In this document: piece by piece, positions 4,157 to 8,211 of the stretch
Numbering within the stretch: position 1 is the stretch's first letter
Layout of the letters: each line of letters opens with the position of its first letter
NCBI GenBank assembly: GCA_022824765.1
Contig: JAJDZG010000150.1
Location: 1-32,563, forward strand
Direction of reading: 5' to 3'
Source of the DNA: Dehalococcoidia bacterium
Lineage (GTDB): Bacteria; Chloroflexota; Dehalococcoidia; Bin125
DNA: 32,563 nucleotides
Position numbers and translations under genes: made by a program
The notes under the pieces: generated by a model
What the model saw: only the letters and a program-made list of their open reading frames with translations
What the model was told of the DNA's origin: nothing
Databases searched by the model: none

Positions 4157-5407
4157 GTGTTTGAGTACTTCGTCCTCTTGCTGGGGCTGCTGACGCTGTC
4201 AGCCTTCTTCTCCAGCTCCGAAACCGCGTATCTGTCCATCGAGGGCGTGCGCATGGAGCACGAACGCCAGCGCCGACTGCCCGGCGCCGACCGCGCCGCC
4301 GCCCTGCTCAGCGAGCCCCGACGACTGCTCGCCTCCATCCTGGTCGGCAACAACCTGGTCAACACCGGAGCCGCCACCGTCGGCGGCGTGATCGCCCAGG
4401 AACTCGTCGGCGGCAGCGAGGGCCTCAGCATCATCGTCGCCACCGTCGCCGTCACCGTGCTGCTCGTCATCTTCGGCGAGATCGGCCCCAAGTCCGTCGC
4501 CCTCCACCACAACCTCACCATGGCTCGCTACTACTCGCTGCCCCTCATCTGGTGGAGCCGACTGATCGCCCCAGCCGTCGCCGCACTCGATTGGACCTCC
4601 CGCATCTGGCTGCGCATCGTCGGCGGCCAGGAAGAAGCCCACTCCGCTCTCTCGCTCGGCGAGCTGCGCACCGCGATCGTCCAGGCCCGCGACGAAGGCG
4701 AAATCGCCGTCGGCGACACCTCGGTCTTGCTCGGCGCGCTCCGCCTCGGCGAGACCCAAGTCCGCCGCGTGATGACCGCTCGCACCGCCATCAGCTCAGT
4801 CGACGCCAACGCAACCCTCGAAGAGGCCGGCCGCGCCTTCGCCCTCGCCGGATTCCTCCGCTTGCCCGTTCGCTTCGGCTCCGCCGACGACTACATCGGC
4901 TACCTGCACGGCTCCGACGTCCTGGCCGAGCTGGGACAAGGCAACCGCGACGGCGTCGTCCGTGACGTCATGCGCGAGGCGCCGCTCGAGTCCGAACGCG
5001 CCTCGGTCCAGCGCGTGCTGACCGAAATGCAGACCACCGGCCAGCACCTGATGCTCTTGATCGACGAGTTCGGAGCGACCACCGGCCTGGTCACCCTCGA
5101 GGACATCCTCGAGCTCGTCGTCGGCAACATCCGCTCCGAAACGCGCGCCGGCTCCGAGCCCGTCCCCGTCCGCATCGCCGGAGAACAATTCGTCGAAGGC
5201 CGCCGCGGCCTCACCGACCTCGGCGCGGAGCTGGAGATCGACTTCTCGCCAGAAGAAGCGGAAACCGTCGCAGGCATGCTCCTCCTGCGCTTCCGACGCT
5301 TCCCTCGCGCCGAGGAGTCGCTCGACCTCTACGGCTTCCGCTGGACCATCGTCGACGCGGACGAACGCCGCATCCGCCTCGTCCGCTTCAGCCGCCTCAA
5401 GGGCTGA
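4157..5407 (+). CDS. CNNM/CorC (hemolysin C)-type transporter with CBS domains
   Basis: A 416-residue membrane protein of the DUF21/CNNM family, proposed in general to export Mg2+ or other divalent cations. Domains in order: a DUF21 transmembrane domain (about 1-150) with the typical SSSETAYLS start, LVGNNLVN and FGEIGPKSVA; a CBS pair (about 165-310; ALRLGETQVRRVMTAR, then DEFGATTGLVTLEDILELVVGNI); and a CorC/HlyC-associated domain (about 325-412). The GTG at 4157 is chosen because GGGAG lies 6 nt upstream. A longer frame back to 4091 adds only an Arg-rich stretch. It precedes the tRNA-Leu/Gln pair by 32 bp. Confidence 0.88.
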   Translation: MFEYFVLLLGLLTLSAFFSSSETAYLSIEGVRMEHERQRRLPGADRAAALLSEPRRLLASILVGNNLVNTGAATVGGVIAQELVGGSEGLSIIVATVAVTVLLVIFGEIGPKSVALHHNLTMARYYSLPLIWWSRLIAPAVAALDWTSRIWLRIVGGQEEAHSALSLGELRTAIVQARDEGEIAVGDTSVLLGALRLGETQVRRVMTARTAISSVDANATLEEAGRAFALAGFLRLPVRFGSADDYIGYLHGSDVLAELGQGNRDGVVRDVMREAPLESERASVQRVLTEMQTTGQHLMLLIDEFGATTGLVTLEDILELVVGNIRSETRAGSEPVPVRIAGEQFVEGRRGLTDLGAELEIDFSPEEAETVAGMLLLRFRRFPRAEESLDLYGFRWTIVDADERRIRLVRFSRLKG

Positions 5408-5413
5408 GATGCC

Positions 5414-5429
5414 GATAAGCTGATAAGCT
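5414..5429 (+). promoter_or_regulatory. Tandem GATAAGCT repeat; -10 of the tRNA-Leu/Gln unit
   Basis: An exact head-to-tail duplication of GATAAGCT contains two TAAGCT hexamers. The second (5424-5429) ends 10 nt before tRNA-Leu, the distance expected of a -10 element serving a tRNA with a very short leader. The same TANGCT form precedes tRNA-Asn and tRNA-Gly here. Confidence 0.5.
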
Positions 5430-5439
5430 GGTAACGCGT

Positions 5440-5525
5440 GCCGAGGTGGCGGAATGGTAGACGCGATGGTCTCAAACACCATTGGGCGCAAGCCCGTGCC
5501 GGTTCGAGTCCGGCCCTCGGTACCA
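5440..5525 (+). tRNA. tRNA-Leu (anticodon CAA)
   Basis: A class II tRNA: acceptor GCCGAGG pairs with CCTCGGT (G1-U72 wobble), the anticodon stem ATGGT/ACCAT encloses loop CTCAAAC with anticodon CAA at 5473-5475, there is a long variable arm (GGGC GCAA GCCC), the T-arm is GCCGG/CCGGC, and the CCA end is encoded. It reads UUG codons. Confidence 0.97.
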
Positions 5526-5542
5526 AGCCACCGAAAGAACAA

Positions 5543-5616
5543 TGCCGAGTAGTGTAACGGTAGCACTAGGGACTTTGGATCCCTCAGTTCAGGTTCGAAT
5601 CCTGGCTCGGCAGCCA
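5543..5616 (+). tRNA. tRNA-Gln (anticodon TTG)
   Basis: Acceptor TGCCGAG pairs with CTCGGCA. The anticodon stem AGGGA/TCCCT encloses loop CTTTGGA with anticodon TTG at 5575-5577. The T-arm is CAGG TTCGAAT CCTG and the CCA is encoded. It lies 17 bp after tRNA-Leu and is probably processed from the same transcript. Confidence 0.97.
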
Positions 5617-5634
5617 CCCACTGTGGCCCGCCTC

Positions 5635-5664
5635 TTGACATCAACACCCGACCGCGTGTAAAGT
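5635..5664 (+). promoter_or_regulatory. Sigma-70-type promoter for the candidate small RNA
   Basis: A perfect -35 TTGACA (5635-5640), an 18-bp spacer and -10 TAAAGT (5659-5664) predict a start near 5671. No plus-strand gene follows until rpmJ at 8331; immediately downstream are only the folded element and the antisense DUF3800 gene. The promoter therefore appears dedicated to a short non-coding transcript. Confidence 0.6.
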
Positions 5665-5670
5665 GAAGCC

Positions 5671-5745
5671 AAAGGTTCCTCCCCGATGAAAGAGCCCATG
5701 GGGCTCTCTCCGCTTGCGGAGTAGTCGGGGAGGTCATTTGTTCTC
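5671..5745 (+). ncRNA. Candidate structured small RNA (three-way junction)
   Basis: The predicted transcript folds almost completely. An outer 9-bp stem CCTCCCCGA/TCGGGGAGG (5678-5686 with 5725-5733) encloses two hairpins: AGAGCCC-ATG-GGGCTCT (5691-5707) and CTCCGC-TT-GCGGAG (5708-5721). A T-rich run (TCATTTGTTCT, 5734-5744) follows, as in an intrinsic terminator. A 12-codon frame starting at ATG 5686 and ending in TAG at 5724 fills the enclosed region; this may be chance. The element lies between tRNA-Gln and the 3' end of the convergent DUF3800 gene. It does not resemble SRP RNA, 6S, tmRNA, RNase P or a T-box that I can recognise. It could instead be a bidirectional terminator. Confidence 0.5.
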
Positions 5746-5754
5746 CGCGCAACG

Positions 5755-6426
5755 TCAGTAGTAGCGGGTCAAGCCGGTTTGGAAGATATCGAACTCGCTC
5801 TTGATCGCAGGCTTGATTGAGCTATAGTGCTCCAAGTCTGCTCGCTCCCACTTCCGATAGATCGCCCAGCAGAAGTAATCGGCCATCTGCAGTCCATAAT
5901 GCGCCTTCGATGCATGATGGATAATGCGATAGCGCATATGAGGAGGTACAGTGTTGTGTAGAGCCTGTTGAATCGCTTTGGTCACGGCTTTGCGCTGCTT
6001 CTGGACGGGAATAGTGTCGGTAACTACGATCAACTCACTTGTCCAGGGATGCTGTTCTCTGTTCATGACATCTCTCAGCAGGTAACCTAGCATACTTGGA
6101 TAGAAAGTCGCCGGCGGCTGAAGCGTCGGTGTAGTCTTGGCTTTTTCGACGATCAGAGCGTCAATCCGTAGCTGGCCGAGTGCTGGCAACAGGCGCTCGA
6201 ACACTCCTTGGCGGACTGGCCGGCTATCTTCGGCACAATGAAACGACTCAAGATCGGGCAACTGAGGTGTTTCGATGCAATCGTGCTTGAAGCCGTCGAG
6301 TTCAGTGTAGCCTGGAAACGGACGTGTCATACTGACGCAAGTGAGCACGAAAAAGCTAGTACCTTTAGGACTAAAGTCAAAGTTACCAGACTCATCGAGG
6401 AACACGTAGGTCGGACCTGGCTGCAA
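5755..6426 (-). CDS. DUF3800 family protein
   Basis: A 223-residue protein of the DUF3800 family, which has a predicted RNase H-like fold and is often found in mobile or defence-associated contexts; its biochemical role is not established. Family hallmarks are the N-terminal YVFLDESGNFDF with its acidic pair, the central ELIVVTDT strand, and QMADYFCWAIYRKWE near the C-terminus with a further acidic residue. The TTG start at 6426 is supported by GGAAGGGA about 8 nt upstream. By eye its codon use is distinctly less C-ending than all neighbours (many CTT, TTT, CAT and ATA-type codons), suggesting recent acquisition. It sits between tRNA genes, a common insertion site. Confidence 0.8.
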   Translation of the reverse strand: MQPGPTYVFLDESGNFDFSPKGTSFFVLTCVSMTRPFPGYTELDGFKHDCIETPQLPDLESFHCAEDSRPVRQGVFERLLPALGQLRIDALIVEKAKTTPTLQPPATFYPSMLGYLLRDVMNREQHPWTSELIVVTDTIPVQKQRKAVTKAIQQALHNTVPPHMRYRIIHHASKAHYGLQMADYFCWAIYRKWERADLEHYSSIKPAIKSEFDIFQTGLTRYY

Positions 6427-6505
6427 GTTTAGGTCCCTTCCTATGCGTGGCCTGGGCGTTCATTCTGCCGGTTCAGAGGAGCGCGCAACCTCGTGTTTTC
6501 TCGGA

Positions 6506-6581
6506 GGCCGCCCCAGGCAGAACATGAGCTGACAGCCTAATGGCTAACAGCCGCGCGTTCGAGCAATCGAGCGACCGAGCT
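6506..6581 (-). pseudogene. Decayed full-length tRNA-Asn copy
   Basis: This 76-nt stretch aligns without gaps to the intact tRNA-Asn at 6813-6888 (76 nt) in the same orientation, with 53 of 76 positions identical by hand count. The anticodon loop CTGTTAG still holds GTT. The acceptor, D, anticodon and T stems each contain mismatches, so it should not fold as a working tRNA. The central anticodon region is best preserved and the T-arm is poorest. It marks an old tandem duplication of the tRNA gene. Confidence 0.75.
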
Positions 6582-6595
6582 CGGGTTTCGCTAGG

Positions 6596-6790
6596 TTACC
6601 TGGTCAACCGACTCGATGGCGTGACATGTTCGCGGGCTGGCCGTGGGATTGGGTCGTCGACCCGCTGGGCGGCTTCGAGCCAGAAGCTCATGGCGACCTG
6701 CGCGTCTCCGTGCGCCATGCTGCCGGGTAGGTCGGCGATGTAGAGGTCGCCCTCGTCGCTCCAGTAGATGGTGATGGTGTACCTGTGCAC
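6596..6790 (-). pseudogene. HicB-like antitoxin remnant
   Basis: The 64-residue frame begins MHRYTITIYWSDEGDLYIADLPG and continues with MAHGD, FWLEAAQRVDDPIPRP, the sequence of HicB-type partial RNase H-fold antitoxins. About ten residues expected between MAHGDAQ and AMSFWLE (the usual EEALxN helix) are missing. The ELPGC segment is shortened and the C-terminus runs into unrelated sequence. No hicA toxin gene is present on either side: tRNA-Asn lies immediately upstream and the tRNA pseudogene downstream. It is best read as an internally deleted relic, though a short expressed protein cannot be excluded. Confidence 0.65.
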
Positions 6791-6812
6791 TGGGTTGATG
6801 GTCAGTCAAAAA

Positions 6813-6888
6813 TGGCTGCCCGGGCAGGACTTGAACCCGCAACCTAGCGGTTAACAGCCGCCCGCTCTACCAATTGAGCTACCGGGCA
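6813..6888 (-). tRNA. tRNA-Asn (anticodon GTT)
   Basis: Read on the minus strand: acceptor TGCCCGG pairs with CCGGGCA, the D-arm is GCTC/GAGC, the anticodon stem GGCGG/CCGCT (one wobble) encloses loop CTGTTAA with anticodon GTT, the T-arm is GCGGG TTCAAGT CCTGC, the discriminator is G, and CCA is encoded. Confidence 0.97.
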
Positions 6889-6899
6889 TCACCTCAACA

Positions 6900-6905
6900 A
6901 GCCTA
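6900..6905 (-). promoter_or_regulatory. -10-like TAGGCT before tRNA-Asn
   Basis: TAGGCT on the minus strand ends 11 nt before the tRNA-Asn 5' end and overlaps the TAG stop of the RNase D gene (6903-6905). It matches the TANGCT form found upstream of the other tRNA genes here. Confidence 0.45.
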
Positions 6906-8177
6906 GCGAGATTCCTTCGCTCGGTCATCCCCCTCTGACCACCGCGACGCAGACACCCGTTCCTCCACCTCCAGCGGAACCCTCGAGTGCGGCAGATTGA
7001 TCCGAAGCGTCAGCTCGCCGTCCAGCGCACGCACCAGCGCATCCCCAATCACCTCCCCGCGCCAGCCCGAGAGCAGCGCCGGCTGCCGGCTCTCCTCCCG
7101 ACCGTTGTGATGCCACGCAATCACCGACCGCAACTGCGCGCTCCCGCCCACCACCTCCGAGCTGATCCCGTGCTCCGCGCAGGCCGCAGCCAGCACCGAC
7201 TCCAGGAACAGCACCACCGCCCGCTGAGGCTTCGGCGTGCTCCGCGCCTTGGAAAGCTCCGTCAGCGCCTCCTCTGGCAACTGCAACGCCTGCCCGATGC
7301 ACTCCAGCGCCGACTCGTAATCCGACGCCTTCAGCTTGCCCGCGCCCCGTACGCTCGACAGCTCCGCCGTCGTTGTCGGACAGGACGCCGCGATGGCGAC
7401 CAGCAATCGGTCCTCCGCGACCCGCTGGCGCGGGACATTGCGGCGTTCCGCCAGCGCGTCTCGCCAGCCCGACAGCTCCCGCAGCACCCCCCGCGCGCGC
7501 CTGCTCAGCTTGTTCACCCCCGATATCCGCCGCCAGCGGTCACCGTCGCGCTCCTGCATGCGGACCAGCCGCTGCGAAGTCTCCTCCCGCAGCCACGCCA
7601 AATGCTGGCCCTGATCCTGCCCTTCCCACCGACCCAGGAAGCGATCGTGCAGCTGGAACAGCCAACGGACATCGTCAGCGGCGTAACGCTGCTGCGCCGC
7701 GGTCAACGGCCGGCGCATCCAGTTCGTCCGTGACTGCGATGGGCCCAGCGGCGTGCCAAACTCCGACTCCACCAGCTGCCCGTACGCGATCGGAAAGTGG
7801 TGCCCGCTGAATGCCGCCGCCAGCTGGACATCGAACAGGTTGCCCGGCGGCTGCCCGCTGCGTTGCAGGCAGAACTGCGACTCGTGCTCGTGCGCGTGGA
7901 CGATCGTGCACACCGACGGATCGGCCATCGCCTCCCAGATCGGCTCGTCCGTCGGACCGTCAGGATCGCCGACCAGCGGGTCGATCAGATAACAGCCGTC
8001 CCGCGTGGCCACCTGCAGCAACGCAAGCGCCGGACGGTAGCTGTTCTCGGAGATGAACTCGGTGTCCAACGCCATCTCGCCGTCCCGCCGAATCTGGTCG
8101 GCGAGCCTCGCCACCTCGGCATGACGTGTCAACATAACGACGGACGACGGAGCGTGCGAGACGGTCTCGTTGGGCAT
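6903..8177 (-). CDS. rnd: Ribonuclease D (DEDDy exonuclease with HRDC-type C-terminus)
   Basis: A 424-residue 3'-5' exoribonuclease of the RNase D family, which trims tRNA and other stable RNA 3' ends. Exo I is LDTEF (Asp38/Glu40). Exo II is VHAHEHESQF, where the usual Asp appears replaced by Glu. Exo III is YAADDVRWL (Tyr/Asp) preceded by the typical SRTNWMRRPLTAAQQ. Residues from about 205 to 370 match the helical HRDC-like region. The start at 8177 has a GGGAGG/GGAG Shine-Dalgarno and a TATGAT -10 further upstream. Its stop overlaps the tRNA-Asn -10, so the two are closely linked on the same strand. Confidence 0.9.
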   Translation of the reverse strand: MPNETVSHAPSSVVMLTRHAEVARLADQIRRDGEMALDTEFISENSYRPALALLQVATRDGCYLIDPLVGDPDGPTDEPIWEAMADPSVCTIVHAHEHESQFCLQRSGQPPGNLFDVQLAAAFSGHHFPIAYGQLVESEFGTPLGPSQSRTNWMRRPLTAAQQRYAADDVRWLFQLHDRFLGRWEGQDQGQHLAWLREETSQRLVRMQERDGDRWRRISGVNKLSRRARGVLRELSGWRDALAERRNVPRQRVAEDRLLVAIAASCPTTTAELSSVRGAGKLKASDYESALECIGQALQLPEEALTELSKARSTPKPQRAVVLFLESVLAAACAEHGISSEVVGGSAQLRSVIAWHHNGREESRQPALLSGWRGEVIGDALVRALDGELTLRINLPHSRVPLEVEERVSASRWSEGDDRAKESR

Positions 8178-8211
8178 ACAGAGCAGGAGCCTCCCAGCCT
8201 CACTCGATCAG

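Follow-up and report, generated by a model that had tools for sequence, protein, structure and literature searches.

Does the densely base-paired stretch that faces the 3' end of a DUF3800 gene encode a small RNA and, if so, what is its relation to the gene? The question arises from the window, i.e. the whole stretch of 32,563 nucleotides of DNA analysed here, in which a structured element at 5669..5742 on the plus strand lies tail to tail with a DUF3800 gene at 5755..6426 on the minus strand, the start codon of which is uncertain.

The window contains a candidate small RNA with a three-way junction and a promoter-like site

The element at 5669..5742 was delimited by its fold and by its match to R1, a covariance model of related sequences (64.2 bits, E 2.1e-18 in 487 kb). 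A conserved AAAGGTT at 5671..5677, seen in alignments A1 and A2, precedes the closing stem P1, the 5' arm of which (5678..5687) pairs with the 3' arm at 5724..5733 on the evidence of both fold and covariation. P1 encloses the hairpin P2 at 5691..5707 (AGAGCCC-ATG-GGGCTCT; 5691-5697 pair with 5701-5707 in the fold and the alignments) and the hairpin P3 at 5708..5721 (CTCCG-CTTG-CGGAG; 5708-5712 pair with 5717-5721 in the fold), which is variable among relatives. The conserved junction TAG (5722..5724), the G of which opens the 3' arm of P1, occupies invariant columns in the 24 sequences of A2. A conserved TCA and a weak T-rich stretch follow at 5734..5745; all of these parts are on the plus strand.

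An earlier note on this DNA had described a 9-bp closing stem around two hairpins, followed by a T-rich run. The three-way junction and both hairpins stand, but folding of 5671-5760 gives a closing stem of 10 bp, the last pair of which is U-G. The T-run is weak in the window (TCATTTGTTCT), but a long T-run is present at the same place in many relatives. No terminator-like site was called in positions 4200-8200 of the window.

The fold of 5671-5760 had a z-score of -2.51, with 2 of 200 shuffles equally stable, and the reverse strand folded at least equally well (z = -4.09). Thus, the fold alone leaves the strand unfixed, and the strand is instead fixed by the promoter and the model; R1 gave at most 18 bits on the reverse strand of the RNAs and up to 90 bits on the forward strand. 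Because the fold energy is modest and not better than that of the reverse strand, comparative evidence was required.

A sigma-70-like promoter, TTGACA-18-TAAAGT, is predicted at 5635..5664 on the plus strand (TTGACA 5635-5640, an 18-nt spacer, and TAAAGT 5659-5664), as the earlier note had proposed, and is the best of three promoter-like sites in 4200-8200, compared with a mean of 0.6 in shuffles. Similar sites recur in relatives. From 78 R1 matches, 56 were chosen, mainly first copies of the AAAGG type, and the 52 with 260 nt upstream were scored. In the 46 nt ending at AAAGG, 19 of the 52 relatives have a sigma-70-like site that matches at 9 or more of 12 positions, compared with 6 of 208 control windows further upstream. 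By hand count, 36 of the 52 RNAs have AAAGG 5-8 nt downstream of the -10-like element of the best site. These recurring sites argue for an independent plus-strand transcript in the window. We conclude that the small RNA is probably made from its own promoter as a separate transcript, and that its 5' end likely lies near 5671, as judged from the promoter position.

The RNA covaries and is linked to DUF3800 genes in several phyla

A search of public genomes with the DUF3800 protein gave 85 loci, of which the best 80 were analysed. In most of these loci, the opposite strand behind the gene carries a common pattern, i.e. AAAGGTTCC or a close variant, the closing stem, GAYAAGAGCCC or a close variant and GGGCTCT, and then the second hairpin, TAG, the closing stem, GGTCA and often a T-run. 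R1 was built from alignment A2, which contains 24 chosen sequences with a 6-bp P2 and excludes the window.

In A2, 98.5% of the cells are paired, and pairing falls to 52-54% when the partner is shifted by one column. Double changes occur at 11 of the 19 pairs, with 63 double-change cells compared with 18.4 in shuffles; all three counted pairs of P3 covary, and four of the six counted pairs of P2 are without any variation. For P1, an alignment of 48 sequences including the window is 98.8% paired and has 90 double-change cells compared with 24.1 in shuffles. Covariation in A2 and in P1 of the 48 sequences rules out a chance hairpin.

At E<=0.001, R1 detected the RNA tail to tail within 350 nt of the DUF3800 gene in 66 of the 80 loci, with a median gap of 9 nt; 23 of the 24 A2 sequences belong to these 66 loci, and the other 43 loci are independent of the model. 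The gap is negative in several relatives (down to -7), in which the RNA match runs a few nucleotides into the gene. The RNA is placed differently in four loci, i.e. ~990 nt behind the gene (L058), behind the gene on the same strand (L070), or in front of the gene (L087, L099). No R1 match at this threshold was found in 10 of the 80 loci (L108 and L109 have no 3' flank, and that of L110 is only 117 nt). Among the unmatched loci, L046 has a similar fold by eye and L082 has a sub-threshold match at the right place, and R1 gave none in five Bacillota loci (L076, L077, L080, L081, L106). Counting the 78 loci of the clade that have any 3' flank, 12 are without a tail-to-tail R1 match. By record title, the RNA-bearing loci belong to Chloroflexota, Alphaproteobacteria, Nitrospira, Acidobacteria, Planctomycetota, Actinobacteria and Patescibacteria; the RNA subtype thereby ties one fold to one clade of proteins of predicted RNase HII-like fold across several phyla.

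The search of related genomes with a covariance model, which had been suggested as a check, thus returned strong compensatory changes together with linkage to DUF3800. With the recurring promoter-like sites, these results support the proposal of a structured RNA that partners DUF3800. In total, we conclude that the element is, with high probability, a conserved RNA partner of DUF3800.

Several loci show additional features. The stretch behind the DUF3800 gene is similar across the five Bacillota loci and is possibly another RNA type. Eight loci (L071, L075, L079, L082, L086, L088, L092, L104), six of which are titled Dehalococcoidia, represent a subtype without AAAGGTTCC/GGTCA and often with an enlarged second hairpin, which keeps GA before P2 as well as TAG and reaches at most 31 bits with R1. 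A second RNA copy is present within the same locus in L040, L075, L086, L101 and L038; the copies in L040 (3894-3968 and 4038-4112) are ~70 nt apart and very similar. When 14 whole genomes and 3 further records were searched, R1 gave 16 matches in 15 of the 17, all at known loci, with no extra solitary copies. Finally, the RNA stretch and its flanks in one genome of the window's genus (G004) are identical to record VXQT01000011.1.

The DUF3800 protein has a predicted RNase HII-like fold

The product of the gene at 5755..6426 passes the gathering score of PF12686 (45.4 bits compared with 21; E 1.8e-11), in agreement with the DUF3800 neighbour described in the earlier note. RNase HII has an active site of four acidic residues. 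The AlphaFold2 model of the DUF3800 protein is confident (pLDDT 94.9), and its closest solved fold is RNase HII 1eke (E 3.8e-6, TM 0.53), followed by human RNase H2.

We aligned the protein from the window with those of 67 of the 80 loci (alignment A4), leaving out eight with stops or X residues (L042, L059, L078, L087, L093, L095, L104, L106) and five that are partial (L097, L107-L110). D14, E15, G17, F21, F65 and H66 are invariant in the 68 proteins, and D70, K98, Q183 and D186 are nearly so. In comparison with the residues of RNase HII, the DE and QxxD motifs are conserved and the acidic D140 is present in only 35 of the 68 proteins; therefore, catalysis by DUF3800 is not certain. A literature search for DUF3800 in retron type VII, of which it is presumably part, found nothing, but a PADLOC model named DUF3800_VII gives a match. 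For another DUF3800 protein, PMC10910872 reports an RNase H fold with catalytic rearrangement from an AlphaFold analysis. We conclude from the model that the DUF3800 protein is a probable RNA-cutting enzyme with a predicted RNase HII-like fold.

The RNA looks like a distant relative of DUF3800-IX

In Rfam, the window RNA matched no family at E<=10, apart from a chance-level match to sR53 (12.3 bits), in line with the earlier statement that it matches no standard housekeeping RNA. At the gathering score, no family was found for the window RNA, and the 60 of the 80 DUF3800 loci that were scanned gave tRNA only. The DUF3800 motifs reportedly originate from Weinberg et al. 2017. DUF3800-I and DUF3800-IX are listed in the Rfam 15 paper (PMC11701678).

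For DUF3800-IX (RF02968), the gathering score of which is 36.8 bits, the window gave no match at E<=10. In a permissive scan, sub-threshold matches were obtained in 3 of 11 relatives (28.4, 26.4 and 24.8 bits; E 0.08 to 0.78), the best thus falling short of the gathering score; L069, searched alone, gave a full-length alignment (1-67) with an E of 0.00018. In 10 further DUF3800 loci there was no match to RF02968 at E<=1. In the other direction, R1 detected 4 of 10 true DUF3800-IX RNAs weakly (E<=0.02).

The L069 alignment and the folds of ten true members reveal a common topology, i.e. a three-way junction in which a long closing stem encloses two hairpins, with GA preceding P2 and UAG preceding the 3' arm. 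DUF3800-IX is also linked to a DUF3800 gene, tail to tail in part of the true members. Thus, RF02968 had 11 matches in 8 of 400 Chloroflexota genomes, 5 of which are tail to tail with DUF3800 (two in G174 and one each in G158, G349 and G037), and by comparison of coordinates the remaining 6 are not beside a listed PF12686 match. Unlike DUF3800-IX, the window RNA has a different P2 (AGAGCC/GGCUCU) and the AAAGGUUCC...GGUCA frame. The mutual weak matches together with the common fold and layout suggest that the two are distant sister types, and the window RNA therefore looks like a distant relative of DUF3800-IX and a new subtype, not a wholly new kind. Titles and abstract openings of 10 of the 11 papers found to mention DUF3800, with few subscription papers covered, contained no description of the window RNA, and for the function of DUF3800-linked RNAs none was found in the searchable literature, Rfam giving names only.

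The pair lies in a variable interval between tRNA genes

The RNA and the DUF3800 gene are flanked by tRNA-Leu, tRNA-Gln and tRNA-Asn, with tRNA-Gln(ttg) at 5543..5616 on the plus strand forming the left edge and tRNA-Asn(gtt) at 6813..6888 on the minus strand forming the right edge of a variable interval. The content of the interval behind tRNA-Gln (5617-6812) differs among genomes of the genus. Of 15 genomes in the window's genus, 14 have the tRNA-Leu/tRNA-Gln pair, and in three (G000, G004, G007) it is followed by the RNA and DUF3800. R1 found no RNA at the other 11 of these loci, and those inspected carry other genes. One genome (G009, locus L123) has a different DUF3800 gene without the RNA at the tRNA-Gln spot. 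In a genome of another genus (G017, locus L005), the RNA begins ~12 nt after tRNA-Gln without DUF3800 and is followed by genes that resemble AbiJ_NTD4 and, by eye, HicB and HicA.

Bacteria, plasmids and phages carry the RNA with or without DUF3800

The occurrence of the RNA without DUF3800, in bacteria as well as in phages, is new. R1 gave 16 matches in 400 Chloroflexota genomes, 74 of which have a PF12686 gene of some kind; hence, most DUF3800 genes of the broad family are without this RNA. Eight of the 16 matches are beside DUF3800 (seven by coordinates and that in G169 by tblastn), and eight are solitary (G163, G252, G296, G365, G317, G332, G427 and a weak one in G105). Five of the genomes with a solitary RNA (G252, G296, G365, G317, G332) have PF12686 matches on other contigs, and a PF12686 search gave none in G163 or G427.

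In g109, another genus of the phylum, the RNA is present in 9 of 13 genomes, and only 4 of those 9 have DUF3800 of this clade. Where DUF3800 is present, the RNA lies 859-861 bp from a fixed motif in the downstream gene for an iron-containing alcohol dehydrogenase; where it is absent, this distance is 177 or 358-361 bp. The cores of the solitary RNAs are 92.5-100% identical and their 150-bp flanks 49-95%; among the three genomes that have the 358-361 bp spacing, identity is 92.5-97% in the RNA and 73-82% in the downstream flank. We take the greater similarity of the RNA cores to reflect selection that acts on the RNA even where its usual partner is missing. Recombination is also at work, as some flank pairs are nearly identical on a single side. 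In L135, a gene for a 454-aa protein (1591-2955) lies tail to tail with a solitary RNA at the usual place of DUF3800, and the protein has no match in Pfam, PADLOC or NCBIfam.

Copies are also found in named cultured phages and plasmids. In the integrase-encoding Gordonia phage Kenna, the DUF3800 gene adjoins the immunity repressor and faces the RNA (75.8 bits) tail to tail; Gordonia phage Lutum also has a copy, and plasmids of Phaeobacter piscinae (P14) and Ruegeria sp. TM1040 carry the pair. The complete genome of Mycobacterium phage Nebkiss has a solitary RNA (67.9 bits) that is 92% identical to the Kenna RNA and lies 73 bp before tRNA-Asn. No DUF3800 was found in Nebkiss by tblastn with two DUF3800 proteins (E<=1e-5), and Gaia, a relative of Nebkiss, gave no megablast match over the RNA stretch. 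Of five loci searched, two, in a Tenderia plasmid and in viral contig L146, have a DUF3800 gene but no R1 match; the proteins of L146 and L046 are the same, and a similar fold is visible by eye in L146.

Pattern scans yielded 25 viral contigs with the RNA, all at R1 E<=0.001, with L154 (28 bits) and L182 (27 bits, cut by the contig end) as weak members. The set was chosen by exact patterns and its records are not all independent; the RNA and the sequence upstream of it are the same in L173 and L176, and L178 is probably Kenna. Five of the 25 records encode DUF3800, each tail to tail, and the other 20 RNAs are solitary, a ratio that is not a natural frequency because of the exact-pattern selection and the possibly fragmentary virus records. 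ARAGORN called a tRNA within 150 nt of the solitary viral RNA in L180, L183 and L185 and within 450 nt in L175, and none in the surrounding stretch of the other 16. In L151 (11114-11199) and L152 (5291-5376), the RNA lies in frame within a longer reading frame, which encodes HNH plus MT-A70 in L151 and, in L152, 363 aa that match no Pfam family. Around the RNA the two contigs closely resemble each other, and elsewhere the frames differ.

The RNA might restrain the DUF3800 nuclease

The split between paired and solitary copies leads to a specific claim, namely that the RNA controls the nuclease and that phages exploit this control. The RNA of ~75 nt, the genetic partner of the convergent DUF3800 gene, would bind the DUF3800 protein and hold the nuclease inactive, as an RNA antitoxin does; the two would form a defence or addiction module, and in phages that carry only the RNA it would serve as a decoy to disarm the nuclease. 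Judged from sequence, the odds that the RNA restrains the DUF3800 nuclease in an antitoxin-like manner are slightly below even. That phages keep the solitary copies as decoys is a more tentative suggestion. Equally tentative is the wider picture of a widespread defence module in which a DUF3800 nuclease with an RNase HII fold would be checked by a trans-acting three-way-junction RNA, transcribed from a convergent promoter of its own, and countered by phages with the lone RNA, sometimes beside tRNA genes.

Restraint is the most economical reading because the gene is seldom without the RNA in the clade, the RNA is often without the gene, a phage immunity region holds the pair and other phages hold solitary copies. 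This asymmetry, with a tail-to-tail RNA absent for 12 of 78 genes and DUF3800 absent for 20 of 25 viral RNAs, for 8 of 16 Chloroflexota matches, one of them weak, and in 5 of 9 RNA-bearing g109 genomes, is as expected of a toxin and its antitoxin. However, the layout, with each convergent gene under its own promoter, differs from that of type III toxin-antitoxin operons, the gene is without an R1 match in the five Bacillota loci, the Tenderia plasmid and L146, and most genomes with a PF12686 gene are without this RNA. Moreover, the solitary RNAs could act independently or serve other DUF3800 proteins, given the PF12686 matches elsewhere in five genomes, and the incomplete conservation of D140 makes catalysis uncertain.

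Each step of the mechanism has a precedent that shows it to be possible. The RNA RCd22 neutralises AbiF through binding (PMC12373285), and phage phiTE escapes ToxIN by means of pseudo-ToxI RNA mimics (PMC3475682). If the RNA restrains the nuclease, the system would resemble type III toxin-antitoxin systems such as ToxIN, for which phiTE carries the mimics (PMC3475682). Unlike ToxIN, it has its own promoter-like site, a convergent layout and an RNase HII-like protein, and in place of a tandem array before the toxin gene there is a second RNA copy in only five loci; the RNA repeats that precede the toxin gene and are transcribed with it in type III systems are not found here. AbiF/RCd22 (RF03085) is similar in that a prophage-borne defence protein is neutralised by an adjoining conserved motif RNA (PMC12373285), and differs in that RCd22 is another RNA, with two motifs in the abiF 5' leader, and AbiF belongs to the Abi_2, HEPN family.

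Alternatively, the RNA could be a working cofactor that positions or activates the DUF3800 nuclease in a ribonucleoprotein, in which case phage copies would titrate the protein or be remnants. We consider this unlikely. The same linkage and conservation would be expected, and some CRISPR type V and VI effectors reportedly have DUF3800 proteins as neighbours (PMC10910872 and PMC12669027), but it is harder to see why phages, and genomes that lack this DUF3800, would keep an activating RNA by itself, and no variable stretch able to act as a guide was seen. The OMEGA RNA of IscB and TnpB is a structured RNA encoded next to a nuclease of RNase H-like fold. The RNA described here likewise lies beside a gene for a protein with a predicted RNase HII-like fold; unlike OMEGA RNA, it shows no guide region: in 36 of 52 relatives 5-8 nt separate the -10-like element from the conserved RNA, and no variable stretch is kept in place after the closing stem. 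A guide-bearing system was rejected because no variable guide-like stretch was seen and the tandem copies in L040 are nearly alike.

Rather doubtful is an independent regulatory or tRNA-pathway RNA of host and phage, with DUF3800 as its commonest mobile neighbour or processing enzyme. Such an RNA would account for the solitary copies that adjoin tRNA genes in a few phages or lie ~12 nt after tRNA-Gln in G017, and for those next to other genes, e.g. the AbiJ_NTD4 gene and the 454-aa gene in L135. However, the tail-to-tail pairing is kept in 66 of 80 loci from several phyla at a median of 9 nt, which is unlike chance neighbours.

The plainer option of the earlier note, a bidirectional transcription terminator between convergent genes, fits the strong hairpin on both strands, the convergent layout and the T-runs behind the stem in many relatives. 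It now appears very unlikely, since it leaves unexplained the invariant unpaired letters, the promoter-like sites upstream, and the solitary copies that lie next to phage tRNA genes or within phage reading frames; moreover, no terminator-like site was called in 4200-8200. The other option raised there, an antisense regulator that base pairs with the DUF3800 messenger RNA, is highly improbable: convergent transcripts could overlap at their 3' ends, as do gene and RNA match by a few nucleotides in several relatives, but in the window the DUF3800 stop codon (5755) lies beyond the end of the RNA match (5742), so that the RNA as drawn is not antisense to the coding sequence, and the RNA is conserved as a fold and also occurs without the gene. 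Finally, a transposon screen in which a DUF3800 gene was among the apparently essential accessory genes (PMC7811196) suggested that the RNA might be the toxic part and DUF3800 its remover, a reading that is disfavoured because the RNA without DUF3800 is common.
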